A stretch of DNA of 64,000 bases from Fodinicurvata sp. EGI_FJ10296 (GTDB lineage Bacteria; Pseudomonadota; Alphaproteobacteria; DSM-16000; Inquilinaceae), in NCBI RefSeq assembly GCF_040712075.1, contig NZ_JBFCVL010000003.1, positions 62,001 through 126,000 of the forward strand, written 5' to 3'. Within the stretch, counting starts at the first letter, position 1; the number at the start of each line of letters is the position of its first letter. Positions 26,725 through 33,875 of this stretch are shown in pieces. The position numbers were made by a program, and so were the translations under genes. Below the pieces are notes generated by a model that searched no databases, was not told where the DNA came from, and worked only from the letters and a program-made list of their open reading frames with translations.

Positions 26725-27507
26725 TCAGTCATAGCGCATCGCCATATCCGCAGTGGCATTGGGCGTACGCGAAGCACAATCGGTCCGCATTTCCGGCTCG
26801 TCATCAACGACGCGGTCAAGGCCGCGATCCAATGCCCAGATCGCCGCCTTGGTTCGATTGCCGACGTTTATCTTCTTGAACAGAAACTTCATCTGGACCT
26901 TGATTGTGCTTTCGGTAACATTGAGCTGAAAAGCAATAATCTTGTTGGGTTCACCGCGTATCAAGAGTCGCAGAATACTCATTTCGCGGTTGGTAATCGA
27001 TGCCTCCGCCTGTATAGCCGCCGAACTGCGCCGCTGGGAAAAGCTCACGCTGCCGGAAATCAACAACGCCCCCAATTCCGTTGGAAACACCGTTTCTCCC
27101 ATCTCCACCAAACGCAACGACTCGATCAAGGCATCGGGCGACAGATCCTTCAGCAGAAAGGCCTTCACACCGGAACGCAGGGCACCAATCAAGTCGTTAC
27201 ACTCAACCTCGTCGTTGATGGCCACGATCTGATAACCGCTGCCCACGGCAGTCAACTCGATGATGTTCCTGAGGAAGTCGGGATCATCGGCACACCACTT
27301 GACGATCAGAAGCCGAGTTTCCGACGCGCCCCGCCGAAGCTCCGGCATCACCTCGTCCAGACGCTGGGCCTCCGCCACGATTCTGAACCTGGTCGTTTCG
27401 AACAGGCGTTTCATGCCTTCGCGAAAAAGGCGGCTTGGGTCAACAACCACGACAGCTGTCTCTTCCAGCAGCCCTTCAATCTCAAATTCGCGGCTTCCAC
27501 TATCCAT
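26725..27507 (-). CDS. LuxR-family regulator with degenerate receiver domain (paralogue 1)
   Basis: 260 aa. An N-terminal receiver-like domain (residues about 17-145) keeps the first acidic patch (VVVVDPSRLFREGMKR) and the beta-5 Lys in FLLKDLSPDAL, but the strand-3 phospho-acceptor position (LLIVKWCADDP) has Lys70 in place of Asp. Conventional phosphorylation is therefore unlikely. The C-terminal LuxR/NarL helix-turn-helix is at about 165-230 (SITNREMSILRLLIRGE, NVTESTIKVQMKFLFKKI). The divergent giant kinase gene starts about 290 bp away. Paralogue 2 (33132-33875) has the same layout. It may be controlled by protein partners or atypical signals; the cognate signal is unknown. Confidence 0.88.
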   Translation of the reverse strand: MDSGSREFEIEGLLEETAVVVVDPSRLFREGMKRLFETTRFRIVAEAQRLDEVMPELRRGASETRLLIVKWCADDPDFLRNIIELTAVGSGYQIVAINDEVECNDLIGALRSGVKAFLLKDLSPDALIESLRLVEMGETVFPTELGALLISGSVSFSQRRSSAAIQAEASITNREMSILRLLIRGEPNKIIAFQLNVTESTIKVQMKFLFKKINVGNRTKAAIWALDRGLDRVVDDEPEMRTDCASRTPNATADMAMRYD

Positions 27508-27800
27508 AAATGCTACCTTTTGCTTGCTTTTACTTGATTTCGGCGCACGTATACTATAATTGATAGACCAAGATATCTCTCACTTTCCATGCACAGCTCC
27601 GGCGACGAAATTGCCGTAAGCGAGACCGAAACGCCTGGTGACAAGGGCGCCCACAAGATAATCGGCGCTGAAAAGTACCCACCATCGGCTCAACCAACAA
27701 ACGTGCGAAATCGGCCGATTTGAAAGGGCCCGGAATCATTTCCAAAATTCAAAGAAACTGAAAATTTCGGATCGACGTCCGGCTTCAGAACTTATGACAA
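27508..27800. other. AT-rich divergent promoter region
   Basis: Between the divergent LuxR gene and the kinase gene, nearly 300 bp are AT-richer than the average and contain no supportable gene. They should hold both promoters. If the kinase starts at 27972 rather than 27801 the region is longer. Confidence 0.6.
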
Positions 27801-30800
27801 ATGCAAAGCGGTGGGTATCATCGGAATCTACTCAATTTTCTTCCACGAGTGACTTTGCGATTGGCGCCGCCATCCGCAGAACCTCACGCCGCGACGTCCG
27901 GAAGGCGATCGGGCAATCCGGGCACAGCGCCAGGGTCATTGTTTTGGGACTATGCGGCACCAAATTGTAGTATGCGTTACCTGTTATTGATCGAAAGTTC
28001 TGTTTTGATACGCGACCGCTCGTCGGCCCCTGAGGGCCAGCCTACGCGCGCCGACGAGGCCGCGTTGGACATTGGCCACCCCCCGGGCAGGACTTTTCCG
28101 GTGATTGCGCTCGGCGCGTCTGCCGGCGGTCTGCAATCCTGTCGCAAGCTTCTGAAAGCTCTGCCCAAAGAGCCGAAACTGGCATTCGTGTTGATCCTGC
28201 ACCTGGATCCGACGCACGAAAGCATGATGGTCGATCTGCTGGCCCGAGACACGACGCTGACCGTCCTAGAAGCCGCCGAGTCCATGGTGGTCGAGCCTGG
28301 TTGTCTCTATGTCATTCCGCCGGGCGCCTATTTATCGATTGCCAATGGCACACTCCATCTCAACCCACCGAGCGAACGGCATGGCGCTCGGCTTCCGTTC
28401 GATTTCTTCCTGCAATCACTGGTGAAGGACATGGCCGGCCGCGCGGTCTGCGTCGTGTTGTCCGGGACGGGAGCCGATGGTAGCGCGGGTCTGGCCGCGG
28501 TCCGCGCGGCAGGCGGCGTGGTGATCGCCCAGGATCCTGACGACGCCGAATATCCCGGCATGCCGAACAGCGCGATCGAGACCGGTCTGGTCGATCATAT
28601 CCTGACGACGGCCCATATGCCGCCCGTATTGGCGGATATTGCCCGAAACGCCGCCCTGGTGCCTGCGGCCAAACCCGCGCCTCCGGTCGTGCGAGCGCAC
28701 GTCGAACTGGATCAGGACAGCTTCAATGCAATCGTCGATCTCGTCCGAAGTCGCACCAGCCAGGACGTCACGCTTTACAAGACCGGAACGATACAGAGAC
28801 GAATCGCCCAACGGATGGCGATGTCCAGCATTCCGCCGACCGATTCGACGCGATATCTCGACCTTCTCCGGTCGGATTCCGCAGAACTTGACCGTTTGGC
28901 CGCCGATTTGCTGATACATGTGACGGGGTTCTTTCGCGACACGATCGCCTTTGATCGATTGGCGGCCAGCACCATTCCCGAACTGTTGCAGGGAAGGCCG
29001 ACCGACCAACCGCTTCGGGTCTGGGTTGCGGGATGCAGCACTGGCGAGGAAGCCTATTCCATCGGCATGCTGTGCCTGGAAGCGATCGAAGCCCGGGAGG
29101 AGCCTATCGGGCTGCAGATCCTGGCGTCCGACATTGATGCCGAAGCCATCGCCACTGCACGCGAAGGGTTCTATCCGGACAGCGCGGTCGCGGCCATATC
29201 CGGGGAACGTCTTGCACGCTTTTTCAACAAGGAGGTCGGTGGCTGGCGCGTGCAGGCACATCTTCGGGACAAGATCGTGTTCACGGTCCAGGATCTGCTG
29301 TCGGACCCACCGTTTTCGCGTATTGATCTTGTCGCCTGCCGAAACCTTCTGATCTATCTGGGCGCTGAAGGACAGCGCCGGGCAATCGGGATGTGCAGTT
29401 TCGCGCTGCGGCCCGGCGGATTCCTGATGCTCGGCAGTTCGGAAACGCCGGGCGCCCTCAACGGACGGTTTGAATCCAACGACAAGGCCGCGCGGCTTTG
29501 GCGCCGCGTCGGAAAATACTCACCCGACGATCTGAAACTTGTTTCAGGGGCCCGGCCCGAACCGGCCACTCCGGCGAAACCGACCGGCGGGCGGCGGACG
29601 GATTATGCGGAAATCTGCCGCCAACAGCTGATCACCGCGTACGCCCCCGCAACAGCTTTGCTGAACCGGCGTCTGGAATGCCTGTATCTTCTGGGGCCAA
29701 CCGACCGGTATCTGCGGCTGGCACCCGGCTATCCCAACCACGACTTCCTCGCCATGGCGCCAAAGTCCTTGCGTGTCAGACTGCGCGCGGCGGCGGCATC
29801 CTGCACCGCAGAAAATCCCGTGGTGACGATTGTCGGTGGCCGGACCGACGATGGCGCCGCCTTTTCCGCCGAAATGCGGGCTATCGCCGCTGCGGATGAA
29901 AACCTCTTGCTGGTCTCCTTTTTCGATGACCGGTCGCAACTCTCTTTCACACCGCCCCCATCCGACGCCGATCAGTCCGCGCCCCCCAAGCGGGTCCTGG
30001 CGCTGGAGGCTGAACTCGAAACCGTCAAGGCAGAATTGAGCGCTGCGCTCAGCGATCTGGAAACGGCTGCTGAAGAACATGGCGCGGATGCGGCAGAGGC
30101 GTTGTCGATCAACGAAGAATATCAATCGACCAACGAGGAATTGCTTGCCTCCAAGGAAGAGTTGCAGTCGCTGAACGAGGAACTGAACGCTCTCAATGGT
30201 CAGCTGCAGGAAACGCTGGAATGCCACCGCACCACTGCCAACGATTTGCAGAACGTCCTGTACAGCACCGACGTTGCGACCGTATTTCTCGACACCGAGT
30301 TGAAGATTCGCTTTTTCACACCGGCCCTGCAGTCACTTTTCCGCATCATCCCCACCGATATCGGCCGTCCCCTGGCGGATTTCGCGGGCCTGGCGAACGA
30401 TGCCGGCCTTCTCGAAGATGCCGTCGCCGTGCTTCAAGGACACGAACCGAGCGAACGTGAGATCATATCGGCCGACGATACATGGTACCAGCGCCGCATT
30501 CAGCCCTATCGCGTCGAGGGTGGGCATGTCGAAGGGGTGGTAATCACCTACACCAACATCACAGAACGCCGAAAGACGGCCGAAGCCCTCGACGCGGCGC
30601 GTCTGAAGGCCGAACGCGCCGATGCAGCCAAGTCCCGTTTCCTGGCAGCTGCCAGCCACGACCTGCGCCAGCCACTGCAATCGCTGGCCCTGATCCACAA
30701 GCTGTTGCTCCACGACGAGGGCGAAGCGCACCGCCGGCGACTTGCGGCCCTGCAGGACCGAACACTGGCATCGATGACCGAAATGCTCGACGCCCTGCTC

Positions 30801-32447
30801 GACATCAATCGGATCGATGCTGGCGCGATAAAACCCGAGATAGCCTCATTTCCCCTGGCACCATTGATCGAGCGGCTGATCGAAGACCATGCCGATCTGG
30901 CGGCGGATTACGGTCTTCGACTGCGCGGCCTTCCCTCGACCGCAACGGTGCGGAGCGACCCGCGCCTGCTGGAACAGATGCTGCGAAATCTCTTGTCAAA
31001 CGCGATGAAGTACACACTCAAGGGGGGTATACTTCTTGGGTGTCGACGAAGGGGCGATCACGTCAGCATCGAAGTCTGGGACAGTGGCGTCGGGATCGCG
31101 GAATCCGATCAGGCGGCAATTTTCGAAGCCTATCATCGAATCAAGAATGACGCCGGCGGTGAAGGCCGCAGTTTCGGCCTCGGCCTGGGACTGCCGATCG
31201 TCAAGCATCTCGGTGAAATTCTGGGTCATCGGGTATCGGTCCGCTCACGGATCGGCCACGGTTCCGGTTTCGCGATCGAAGTTCCGGCCGCATCGCTGCG
31301 GTCGGATTCCGTCTCGCCGTCCTCACCCCACCTTGATGTCGGCATACTCCCCGAACCTCGGAAGACTGGATCGACCTCCGATATCGACGATGCGCCCGAC
31401 ACTGGAACACCCGGCGCAACGATCCTGTTGGTCGAGGACGAACCGGATTTGCTCGAACTCATGACCGCCATGCTGACCGCTGAAGGGCACCATGTTATTG
31501 CAGCACGCGATGCCGCCGACGCCCTGTCACGCGCGGTCGACCCGGCGGTGACGCCCGACCTGCTTCTCACCGATTTCGACCTTCACAATGCCTTGAACGG
31601 CGTGCAATTGGCCGCTGCCCTTTCCGGTGTTCTCGGTCGCCCGGTTCCGACGATCGTCCTGACCGGCGATATCTCGACAGCGGCTCTGCGTGGTATCACG
31701 GAATCGAACTGCCAGCCGATCGCCAAACCGGCCAGCCCGGAGATGCTGAACGCCCGGATCAAGTCGCTGCTCCAATGGGCATCGAGCGTTCCGCTTCACC
31801 CGGAGCCCGGCGGGCAGGAGGCCGACCAGGACCGATTCCAGCCCGCTGGGCCGACCATCCATATCATCGACGATGACCCGATCATTCGCGACAGCTCGCG
31901 GCACCTGTTCAAATCAAACGCGTGGGCGAGCGAAACCTACAATTCAGCGGAAGCATTCCTTGATGCCCCGCGCCCATCCGGCGACGCCTGTTTGGTTGTC
32001 GACGCACGGCTGCCCGGGATGGACGGCGTGGCCCTGTTGGCTCTGCTCAAGAACGAAGGGCACAACATACCGTCGATCATGATCACGGGTCATGGCGATT
32101 CAGCCATGGCTGTTGCCGCCATGAGATCGGGCGCGTCGGACTTTATCGAAAAGCCTGCCAATCCCGACGATCTGATTGCAAGCGTGGCCCGCGCATTGGA
32201 GCAATCACGAGACAGCCGGGCGCTGGCTCAATCGCGCCAGACGGCCGCCGCGCAATTCGCCAGCTTGACGCGGCGCGAGGAACAGGTGCTGGAAAAGGTT
32301 CTTGCGGGCGACTCCAACAAGAACATCGCCGCCGATCTGGGGATCAGCCAACGGACGGTCGAAAATCACCGGGCATCGGTTATGCAGAAAACCGGCACGC
32401 CGTCGCTGCCAGCGCTCGTCCGGCTCGCCCTGGCGGCGGGACGATAA
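27801..32447 (+). CDS. CheB-CheR-PAS-histidine kinase-REC-REC-LuxR fusion protein
   Basis: 1548 aa by the longest frame. Domains in order: CheB methylesterase (about 98-280; GASAGG, HLDPTHESMM, GTGADGSAGL), CheR methyltransferase (about 305-575; VAGCSTGEEAYS), a coiled coil (about 730-812), a PAS domain (about 815-925), HisKA with the phospho-acceptor in ASHDLRQPLQSL (about 943), HATPase (about 1056-1165; NLLSNAMKYT, DSGVGI, FGLGLGLPIVKHL), receiver 1 (about 1206-1325; LLVEDEPDL, LLLTDFDL), receiver 2 (about 1352-1470; HIIDDDP, LVVDARLPGMDG) and a FixJ-like LuxR helix-turn-helix at the end (about 1480-1545; LTRREEQVLEKVLAGDSNK). One protein therefore contains sensor, kinase, phospho-receivers and DNA-binding output. 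The start is uncertain: ATG 27801 or ATG 27972 (57 codons later, MRYLLLIESS); neither has a clear ribosome binding site. No membrane helix is present, so it is cytoplasmic. Confidence 0.93.
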   Translation: MQSGGYHRNLLNFLPRVTLRLAPPSAEPHAATSGRRSGNPGTAPGSLFWDYAAPNCSMRYLLLIESSVLIRDRSSAPEGQPTRADEAALDIGHPPGRTFPVIALGASAGGLQSCRKLLKALPKEPKLAFVLILHLDPTHESMMVDLLARDTTLTVLEAAESMVVEPGCLYVIPPGAYLSIANGTLHLNPPSERHGARLPFDFFLQSLVKDMAGRAVCVVLSGTGADGSAGLAAVRAAGGVVIAQDPDDAEYPGMPNSAIETGLVDHILTTAHMPPVLADIARNAALVPAAKPAPPVVRAHVELDQDSFNAIVDLVRSRTSQDVTLYKTGTIQRRIAQRMAMSSIPPTDSTRYLDLLRSDSAELDRLAADLLIHVTGFFRDTIAFDRLAASTIPELLQGRPTDQPLRVWVAGCSTGEEAYSIGMLCLEAIEAREEPIGLQILASDIDAEAIATAREGFYPDSAVAAISGERLARFFNKEVGGWRVQAHLRDKIVFTVQDLLSDPPFSRIDLVACRNLLIYLGAEGQRRAIGMCSFALRPGGFLMLGSSETPGALNGRFESNDKAARLWRRVGKYSPDDLKLVSGARPEPATPAKPTGGRRTDYAEICRQQLITAYAPATALLNRRLECLYLLGPTDRYLRLAPGYPNHDFLAMAPKSLRVRLRAAAASCTAENPVVTIVGGRTDDGAAFSAEMRAIAAADENLLLVSFFDDRSQLSFTPPPSDADQSAPPKRVLALEAELETVKAELSAALSDLETAAEEHGADAAEALSINEEYQSTNEELLASKEELQSLNEELNALNGQLQETLECHRTTANDLQNVLYSTDVATVFLDTELKIRFFTPALQSLFRIIPTDIGRPLADFAGLANDAGLLEDAVAVLQGHEPSEREIISADDTWYQRRIQPYRVEGGHVEGVVITYTNITERRKTAEALDAARLKAERADAAKSRFLAAASHDLRQPLQSLALIHKLLLHDEGEAHRRRLAALQDRTLASMTEMLDALLDINRIDAGAIKPEIASFPLAPLIERLIEDHADLAADYGLRLRGLPSTATVRSDPRLLEQMLRNLLSNAMKYTLKGGILLGCRRRGDHVSIEVWDSGVGIAESDQAAIFEAYHRIKNDAGGEGRSFGLGLGLPIVKHLGEILGHRVSVRSRIGHGSGFAIEVPAASLRSDSVSPSSPHLDVGILPEPRKTGSTSDIDDAPDTGTPGATILLVEDEPDLLELMTAMLTAEGHHVIAARDAADALSRAVDPAVTPDLLLTDFDLHNALNGVQLAAALSGVLGRPVPTIVLTGDISTAALRGITESNCQPIAKPASPEMLNARIKSLLQWASSVPLHPEPGGQEADQDRFQPAGPTIHIIDDDPIIRDSSRHLFKSNAWASETYNSAEAFLDAPRPSGDACLVVDARLPGMDGVALLALLKNEGHNIPSIMITGHGDSAMAVAAMRSGASDFIEKPANPDDLIASVARALEQSRDSRALAQSRQTAAAQFASLTRREEQVLEKVLAGDSNKNIAADLGISQRTVENHRASVMQKTGTPSLPALVRLALAAGR

Positions 32448-32560: not shown

Positions 32561-32965
32561 TCAGGTTGGCGCGACAGCGTATTGCTCGTCGGTGACCGGC
32601 TCCATCCAATCCGCGTGCGCGCCGTCGAGGGCCTCGTGGATGGCCAGATGAACCATGCCAATCGTCGGCGATGCGCCGTGCCAGTGCTTTTCGCCGGGTG
32701 GAATCCAGATTGAATCGCCCGGCCGGATCTCGCGGACCGGCTCGCCCCAGACCTGAATGCGGCCGACTCCCGTCAGAACGTGCAGGGTCTGACCAAGCGG
32801 ATGGGTATGCCAGTTGGTCCGGGCCGCCGGCTCGAACGTCACTCGGACGGCGCGGACCCGTGCCGGTTCGGGTGCCTCGTTGATCGGATCCTGCCAGACA
32901 GTTCCGGTGAAATAGTCGGCTGGCACGCGCCGTGTCGGGGTGTCGGCTGCTGGACGGATTTCCAT
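32561..32965 (-). CDS. Cupin-domain protein
   Basis: 134-aa single-domain cupin. The two metal-binding cupin motifs are visible: motif 1 HTHPLGQTLHVLTGVGRIQ (His, His, Gln in place of the usual Glu region) and motif 2 PGDSIWIPPGEKHWHGA. Proteins of this size often act as small isomerases, dioxygenase-like enzymes or metal-binding accessory proteins; the substrate is not predictable. It is convergent with the kinase gene. The start is the ATG at 32963-32965. Confidence 0.85.
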   Translation of the reverse strand: MEIRPAADTPTRRVPADYFTGTVWQDPINEAPEPARVRAVRVTFEPAARTNWHTHPLGQTLHVLTGVGRIQVWGEPVREIRPGDSIWIPPGEKHWHGASPTIGMVHLAIHEALDGAHADWMEPVTDEQYAVAPT

Positions 32966-33131: not shown

Positions 33132-33875
33132 CTAAGCCAGACGTATCTGCGGCTGCTGACTGCCGTAATCCGGGGAATCGTCGTCTGGCTGCGCTGCGAG
33201 ACCATGGGCCTGCGCCCAGATCGCCGCCTGGGTGCGATTGCCAGCATTGATCTTTCTGAGCAGGCTCTTGAGCTGCATCTTTATCGTGCCTTCAGTGACC
33301 TCCAGCCGACGGGCGATTGCCTTGTTCGACTCACCGGACACCAGACACCGCAATACCATCATTTCACGCTCGGTCAGGGCAACGGGCAGCATGCTCACTC
33401 CAGGCCCACTCTGCCAGGCGTCGCCCCCACCGCCAATCAGGGTGGCAGCCAGTTCGGTCGGGAACACGACCTCGCCGATCTGAACCAGTCGCATCGACTG
33501 CACCAAAGCATCGGCCGACAGGTCCCTGAGCAGAAACGCCCGCACACCGGCGCGCAAAGCAGCAACCAGGCTGTCCGAATTCATCTGAGGGCTGAGTGCG
33601 ATAACACGGTAGGAATTTTCCATCGCCGCCAGTTCGGCAACGGCTTCAAGGAGTGCCGGGTCGTCATCGAACCATTCCACGAGGAGAAGTCGGCGGGCGT
33701 GCGCCGCCAGCCGCAGATCCGGCATCATGGCGCCGAGGTGCCGCCCTTCGTTCACGATCCGAAATGGTGTGGACTCGAGCAGACGCTTCATGCCCTCCCG
33801 GCAAAGCCGGCTCTGATCGACAACGACCACATCCGTCCATGACAGCGCCCGCTCTACCTCCAAATGCGTACTCAT
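33132..33875 (-). CDS. LuxR-family regulator with degenerate receiver domain (paralogue 2)
   Basis: 247 aa, clearly paralogous to the regulator at 26725-27507. It keeps VVVVDQSRLCREGMKRLL at the first acidic patch, but the phospho-acceptor position is Glu67 (LLLVEWFDDDP) and the beta-5 Lys is Arg (FLLRDLSADAL). A Glu may mimic permanent phosphorylation, which is a known engineering effect in other response regulators but only inference here. The helix-turn-helix spans about 160-225 (ALTEREMMVLRCLVSGE, EVTEGTIKMQLKSLLRKI). Upstream (33876 onward) is AT-rich, like the upstream region of its paralogue. The two flank the giant kinase and may regulate it or respond to it. Confidence 0.88.
   Translation of the reverse strand: MSTHLEVERALSWTDVVVVDQSRLCREGMKRLLESTPFRIVNEGRHLGAMMPDLRLAAHARRLLLVEWFDDDPALLEAVAELAAMENSYRVIALSPQMNSDSLVAALRAGVRAFLLRDLSADALVQSMRLVQIGEVVFPTELAATLIGGGGDAWQSGPGVSMLPVALTEREMMVLRCLVSGESNKAIARRLEVTEGTIKMQLKSLLRKINAGNRTQAAIWAQAHGLAAQPDDDSPDYGSQQPQIRLA

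Follow-up and report, generated by a model that had tools for sequence, protein, structure and literature searches.

Comparison of the fusion protein encoded in the window (the whole stretch of DNA analysed, 64,000 nucleotides) with its relatives makes it likely that this is a soluble two-component system contained in a single chain, and that a specific DNA box is the site through which it activates promoters. The comparison covers domain order, residue conservation, the box itself, the geometry of the promoters behind it, and its co-occurrence with the LuxR-bearing half of the protein.

The fusion gene is a real, intact ORF: an ORF check of the window gave a single frame of 1548 aa at 27801-32447 (+) with no internal stops. 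All of the named Pfam models score above their own gathering score, and they fall in the order CheB_methylest (102-275), CheR_N (307-359), CheR (374-558), PAS_10 (816-921), HisKA (943-1008), HATPase_c (1053-1163), Response_reg (two stretches, best 1353-1462) and GerE (1488-1543). The intact ORF and this order bear out the proposal of the initial annotation that input, kinase and DNA-binding output lie on one chain. The protein is probably soluble because its highest 19-residue Kyte-Doolittle mean is only 1.52, with no strongly hydrophobic segment. The start assigned at 27801 is probably too early, since the first ~57 codons of the listed ORF overlie the promoter region of a divergent gene, a duplicated region (245 bp are 70% identical to a paralogue's promoter on another contig), and a coding-score gene caller prefers the ATG at 27972. 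This ATG, codon 58 of the listed ORF, is probably the true start. Most homologues become alignable only at about residue 55-101, although two (L038, L039) do so at residue 5. The features of the gene are:

27972..32447, + strand: fusion gene, probable true extent (gene caller, homologue alignments)
28104..28625, + strand: CheB methylesterase domain, with S107, H134 and D226 invariant in 64 of 64 aligned rows (Pfam, alignment)
28719..29474, + strand: CheR N-terminal and SAM-binding methyltransferase domains (Pfam, alignment)
30246..30563, + strand: PAS_10 domain (Pfam)
30627..31289, + strand: HisKA (H953) and HATPase_c kinase core (Pfam, alignment)
31422..31775, + strand: first receiver (D1258), approximate limits (Response_reg stretches, conserved residues, end of the NahK profile)
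31857..32186, + strand: second receiver, FixJ-like (D1401) (Pfam, alignment, solved-structure match)
32262..32429, + strand: LuxR/GerE DNA-binding domain (Pfam, solved-structure match)

Within the gene, in the stretch from CheR to PAS, a one-mismatch copy of the box described below (TGAGTATTTTCCGA) lies at 29509-29522 (-). Convergent with the fusion is a small cupin gene at 32561-32965 (-), which scores 183 bits against a cut-off of 140 on NF049940 ((R)-mandelonitrile lyase).

Judged by its homologues, the fusion as such is not unique but is a member of a recurrent, conserved family, and novelty of the architecture in itself is not supported. We aligned 64 full-length rows, all with the same domain order, leaving out ORFs that were split, frameshifted or cut at contig ends (for example L030, L049-L052, L055, L063, L069, L074, L084, L086 and L098). 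At least 80% of the query is also covered by one tblastn place in each of 24 plasmid records. Forty of 42 inspected positions are common to 60-64 of the 64 rows. At the positions inspected in the CheB triad, CheR motifs, kinase boxes, receiver pockets and HTH core, 63 or all 64 rows agree; the exceptions are a CheR glycine (60 rows), a REC1 acid (61) and the variable last HTH position (K/R, with K in 45). The acceptor aspartate is kept in 63 of 64 rows in REC1 and in all 64 in REC2, and the active-site residues of both CheB and CheR are retained. The H-box reads HDLRQ; its Q, found in 64 of 64 rows, takes the place of the T or N that usually supports phosphatase activity.

A scan of genome contigs for fusion relatives left 80 loci. 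Fifteen of 385 genomes of the class match the fusion with E no higher than 1e-230, although in two the match is partial (G196 from query residue 379 and G056 from 261), and distribution within the window's own family is patchy, with the full-length form in G000 and G016 among 17 genomes searched. A tree made by a quick method is discordant with taxonomy, placing Burkholderiaceae and Dyella rows among Alphaproteobacteria, and the window protein clusters with Lutimaribacter and a Roseicitreum plasmid (SH-aLRT 100). Fusions from loci titled Mycobacterium sp. KBS0706 (L037) and Candidatus Kuenenia (L064) are placed among alphaproteobacterial ones; the proteins of L037 and of G016, a member of the window's family, are identical, so mislabelling or a binning error is likely. 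In Methylocapsa polymorpha (L103, 6073-10353), a separate CheB gene lies directly upstream of a CheR-kinase-type gene that ends in a REC2-LuxR match. Plasmid annotations mostly name the fusion genes chemotaxis protein CheB or CheR family methyltransferase. Judged by title or start of abstract, none of the literature matches listed concerned the architecture or the box; subscription journals were mostly outside the search, so this does not show that either is unpublished.

The box emerged from 8-mer counts upstream of 63 family genes (L009 was omitted as a duplicate of L037), which gave GGAA[AT]CTAC, the reverse complement of GTAG[AT]TTCC. The full element is TGAGTAGWTTCCGANNCT, also written TGAGTAGWTTCCGA(NNCT). 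Positions beyond the nine-base seed were conserved in 33 sites even though they had not been selected, and a wider set was likewise examined. The box is almost the same as the SELEX site published for FixJ, for which an excerpt of PMC4999443 quotes the consensus GTAGTTTCCC along with the fixK site TAAGTAATTTCCCTTA. Searching with TRVGTAGWTTCCG gave 175 sites including repeats from overlapping loci, or 164 unique sites in the loci examined; this survey skipped L001, L009, L117 and L134 and contained 28 loci (L141-L168) plus seven of L133-L140 that had been fetched for holding the pattern. By the gene caller, 160 of the 164 are intergenic, as compared with about 25% of random positions in the same loci, and for 47 of these 160 the next gene in the direction of the box begins 100-149 bp away.

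We assessed promoter geometry in 123 sites that were unique on 40 bp, had enough flank and had the next gene no more than 400 bp away in the box direction. A -10-like TANNNT stands at offset 40 in 40 of these and at offset 41 in 35 (75 of 123 together), and no other TANNNT offset from 14 to 74 reaches 10 sites. This spacing would put the box near -43 relative to the inferred start site, as for an activator site over the -35 region. The box lies within 500 bp of the start in 32 of the 63 fusion genes and anywhere in the examined locus in 53, and is missing from the other 10 examined loci. Among near boxes, 33 are oriented away from the fusion gene and two towards it. The HTH is nearly the same in family members with and without the box, leaving too few differences to compare covariation.

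Sixty-two fusion loci (1.08 Mb) contain 114 boxes and no copy of the reversed pattern, and 32 control loci (0.26 Mb) of relatives without REC-LuxR contain no box. In the class as a whole, the strict 14-mer is found in 12 of 385 genomes, that is, in 9 of 15 fusion-positive genomes vs 3 of 370 others (Fisher 2e-12), the sites in the 370 fusion-negative genomes numbering three, the same as for the reversed control in all 385. A looser 18-mer occurs in 10 of the 385 genomes (reversed control, four sites). Counting strict or loose boxes together gives 12 of 15 fusion-positive vs 4 of 370 other genomes (Fisher 4e-17), with neither pattern in G050, G284 and G308, which were counted as fusion-positive. 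One of the four box-positive others, G075, carries the kinase-REC-REC-LuxR half. The strict box is also present in 20 of 25 named fusion-positive genomes, many of which taught the motif. We saw no relative at E 1e-100 in the box-bearing genomes G154, G251, G275 and G617. Each has a single box (G154 C83, G251 C12, G275 C83, G617 C3), most of which could be explained by chance; the one in G275 keeps the trailing CT.

As a prediction test of the link between box and fusion, we searched 299 Burkholderiaceae genomes. The strict box occurs in six of them, at 24 sites altogether (the reversed control gave nine single sites), and of these six, four carry the full fusion, G578 carries the LuxR-bearing half, and G617, with a single site, has no relative at E 1e-100. 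The fusion or the kinase-REC-REC-LuxR half is therefore present in 5 of 6 box-positive genomes vs 0 of 40 tested box-negative ones, the 40 being our choice from 293, all of at least 5.7 Mb. No match in these 40 reaches the second receiver, and 21 of them have CheB-CheR relatives. G397 was part of the motif learning set, as G671 probably was (its boxes equal those of L104); G585, G474 and G578 apparently lie outside it. CheB-CheR is absent from G578 and G075, where matches begin at query residues 668 and 819, respectively, and reach the LuxR end, and both have boxes all the same. By these comparisons the box tracks the LuxR-bearing half, and CheB-CheR relatives without that half show no link to it. 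Because comparison ties the LuxR-bearing half to a specific box, direct promoter control by the fusion, which the initial annotation had raised, is likely.

An alternative is that the box is read by FixJ or by a separate FixJ/NarL-type regulator of the same genomes, with the fusion merely a neighbour or a target. The match to FixJ's own SELEX site in the PMC4999443 excerpt would fit this, as would the prevailing orientation of near boxes away from the fusion gene and the presence of other FixJ-like ORFs in the window's genome (C3:448989, 40% identity over 1342-1546). We nevertheless consider it unlikely, as presence of the box goes along with that of the fusion or its LuxR-bearing half, both in the 385 class genomes and in the Burkholderiaceae, while genomes with CheB-CheR only are without the box. 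Moreover, G017 and G020, two of six class genomes searched for the REC-LuxR tail, have FixJ-like matches and no exact box.

The fusion could also be mainly a chemotaxis-type or signalling methylation enzyme with a hybrid kinase that serves other partners, its LuxR domain being minor or vestigial. Retention of the CheB and CheR active-site residues, database names that follow CheB or CheR, and the existence of relatives without the LuxR end are all compatible with such a role. The HTH core and receiver acceptors are conserved as well as the enzyme residues, however, and the box follows the LuxR-bearing half even without CheB-CheR (G578, G075), making this reading quite improbable. A frameshift, an assembly error or a chance join of two genes, named at the outset as what could overturn the fusion, has practically no probability left: relatives in two pieces do occur (L103, L050, L086, L098, L030), but the common order in the 64 full-length rows and the cover in the 24 plasmid records exclude it.

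The window's genome holds exactly two 14-mer boxes. The features of the circuit within the window are:

27821..27834, - strand: exact box TGAGTAGATTCCGA, facing the divergent regulator (pattern search)
27789..27794, - strand: -10-like TAAGTT at offset 40 of the box (offset rule from 123 sites)
26725..27507, - strand: divergent NarL/LuxR-type regulator with degenerate receiver, predicted box target (Pfam, by eye)
33132..33875, - strand: paralogue of the divergent regulator (50% identity), degenerate receiver (Pfam, by eye)

The second exact box, on contig 1, faces a paralogue of the 26725-27507 regulator, and TAAGTT stands at offset 40 behind both. Two of the three regulator paralogues share this duplicated box-bearing promoter, and no box precedes the 33132-33875 paralogue under the patterns used. 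By eye, the three have K, E and N at the expected acceptor Asp position (26725-27507, 33132-33875 and contig 1, in this order), and the receivers of the 26725-27507 and 33132-33875 regulators score below the Pfam receiver cut-off. The third NarL/LuxR-type paralogue with a degenerate receiver, the one on contig 1, lies at about 315468-316241 (+) of G000 C1, in L133.

Allowing three mismatches gave five matches in the window vs 4.9 expected, so only the exact site counts there. This box is without the trailing CT, the loose 18-mer pattern has no sites in the window's genome, and the predicted target starts 315 bp off, beyond the usual 100-150. A 10-mer search of the genome found eight sites, six of them without the flanking TGA (reversed control, three). 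With only two exact 14-mer sites, we rejected a wide regulon in this genome. Given boxes before degenerate-receiver LuxR regulators and no surplus boxes, the local output is likely a cascade that leads to LuxR-type regulators unable to accept phosphate by the usual route.

Across the family, the genes downstream of boxes include those for Dps, PRC-barrel, CsbD, Ysc84 and CheY-like proteins. A Pfam tally of 117 such genes, covering the best 25 of 114 families, gave among the matches listed Response_reg 13, CsbD 7, PRC 7, Ysc84 6, DUF3309 5, Ferritin 5, and MCRA, ADH, OmpA and Sigma70_r4_2 3 each. We also opened 17 plasmid regions, of which 16 were annotated, and classed neighbours by product names. 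Seven of the 16 have stress-type neighbours (Dps, CsbD, DUF892, ferritin-like, universal stress protein, PRC-barrel, DUF1003), five are polysaccharide-type clusters with a divergent regulator, and four are of neither type. The five polysaccharide-type loci (L105, L108, L110, L112 and L115, on plasmids of Agrobacterium, Shinella, Rhizobium, Roseateles and Neorhizobium) contain no box, and in them a fusion-type kinase adjoins a divergent degenerate-receiver regulator.

A single universal neighbour was rejected, as no family is common to all loci; the widest, ignoring nested shadow ORFs, is that of a CheY-like receiver, relatives of which occur in 22 other loci. EcfG promoters as the basis of the stress-type neighbours were likewise rejected, on the evidence of fusion upstream regions and box promoters. 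The GGAAC-N-GTT type promoter of the EcfG general stress regulon is not enriched there: GGAAC-N15-20-GTT is present in one of the 63 regions upstream of fusion genes, where the shuffle mean is 2.2, and in none of the 123 box promoters, where it is 1.0.

We hypothesize the following mechanism, in which the phosphotransfer route, DNA binding, activation, transcription start and signal are what we infer. The N-terminal half (CheB, CheR, linker and PAS) would sense or modulate a signal. CheB-CheR is absent from some box-bearing members, suggesting that it is an input layer and not part of the DNA readout. HisKA H953 would autophosphorylate and donate its phosphate straight to D1401 in the second, FixJ-like receiver, which is the simplest route given one kinase, two receivers and no HPt; the first receiver (D1258) may be a competitor, sink or modulator. 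An internal phosphorelay in the strict His-Asp-His-Asp sense, as the initial annotation implied, is not supported, since Pfam found no HPt domain in the protein at E up to 1. The phosphorylated REC2-LuxR end would then bind the box, centred near -43, and activate sigma70-type promoters with the -10 at 40-41 bp from the box start. Family-wide, targets would include stress-type genes and CheY-like receivers; in the window's genome they would be the degenerate-receiver LuxR regulators, hence the suggested cascade.

The protein shares features with several known systems. CheB is joined to CheR in a hybrid from Rhodospirillum centenum (PMC2890560, in part), and the portion of an Azospirillum survey consulted (PMC4618731) lists CheB methylesterase and methyltransferase among the sensing domains of histidine kinases. 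As in CheB-CheR hybrid histidine kinases, the fusion carries CheB, CheR, PAS, HisKA and HATPase one after another in a single chain. It adds REC-REC-LuxR and the link to a box, an output that these excerpts do not mention. It also keeps the active-site residues of CheB and CheR. Like the Bacteroides HTCS, which are transmembrane and have AraC-type DNA binding according to an excerpt of PMC11253607, it combines kinase, receiver and DNA-binding domain in one polypeptide. It differs from them in having no transmembrane sensor by hydropathy, a GerE/LuxR domain instead of an AraC-type one, two receivers, and CheB-CheR. FixJ is the closest solved relative of REC2-LuxR (5xso, E 1e-42), and GTAGTTTCC-type sites, as for FixJ, appear strongly associated with the fusion. 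Unlike FixJ, it is fused to a kinase, scores 229 bits on NF006900, below the cut-off of 255, and has predicted targets other than fixK. Its kinase-REC1 part scores 314.9 bits on NF041832 for the NahK/ErcS hybrid kinases, below the cut-off of 400, and unlike these it has its own output domain.

More tentatively, we speculate that the fusion could be a mobile, self-contained stress circuit: a cytoplasmic sensor-kinase-activator moving between Alpha- and Betaproteobacteria with its own FixJ-type box promoters, whose regulon would lie beside and be independent of EcfG. CheB-CheR might then serve for methylation-linked input or memory, as a module whose loss leaves the DNA target intact. What was an annotation curiosity ("chemotaxis protein CheB") becomes a regulator open to testing, with predictions for its DNA site, promoter geometry and targets. 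The fusion may offer a soluble model for studying how a kinase works when it shares one chain with its transcription factor, and a way into CheB-CheR roles outside ordinary chemotaxis.
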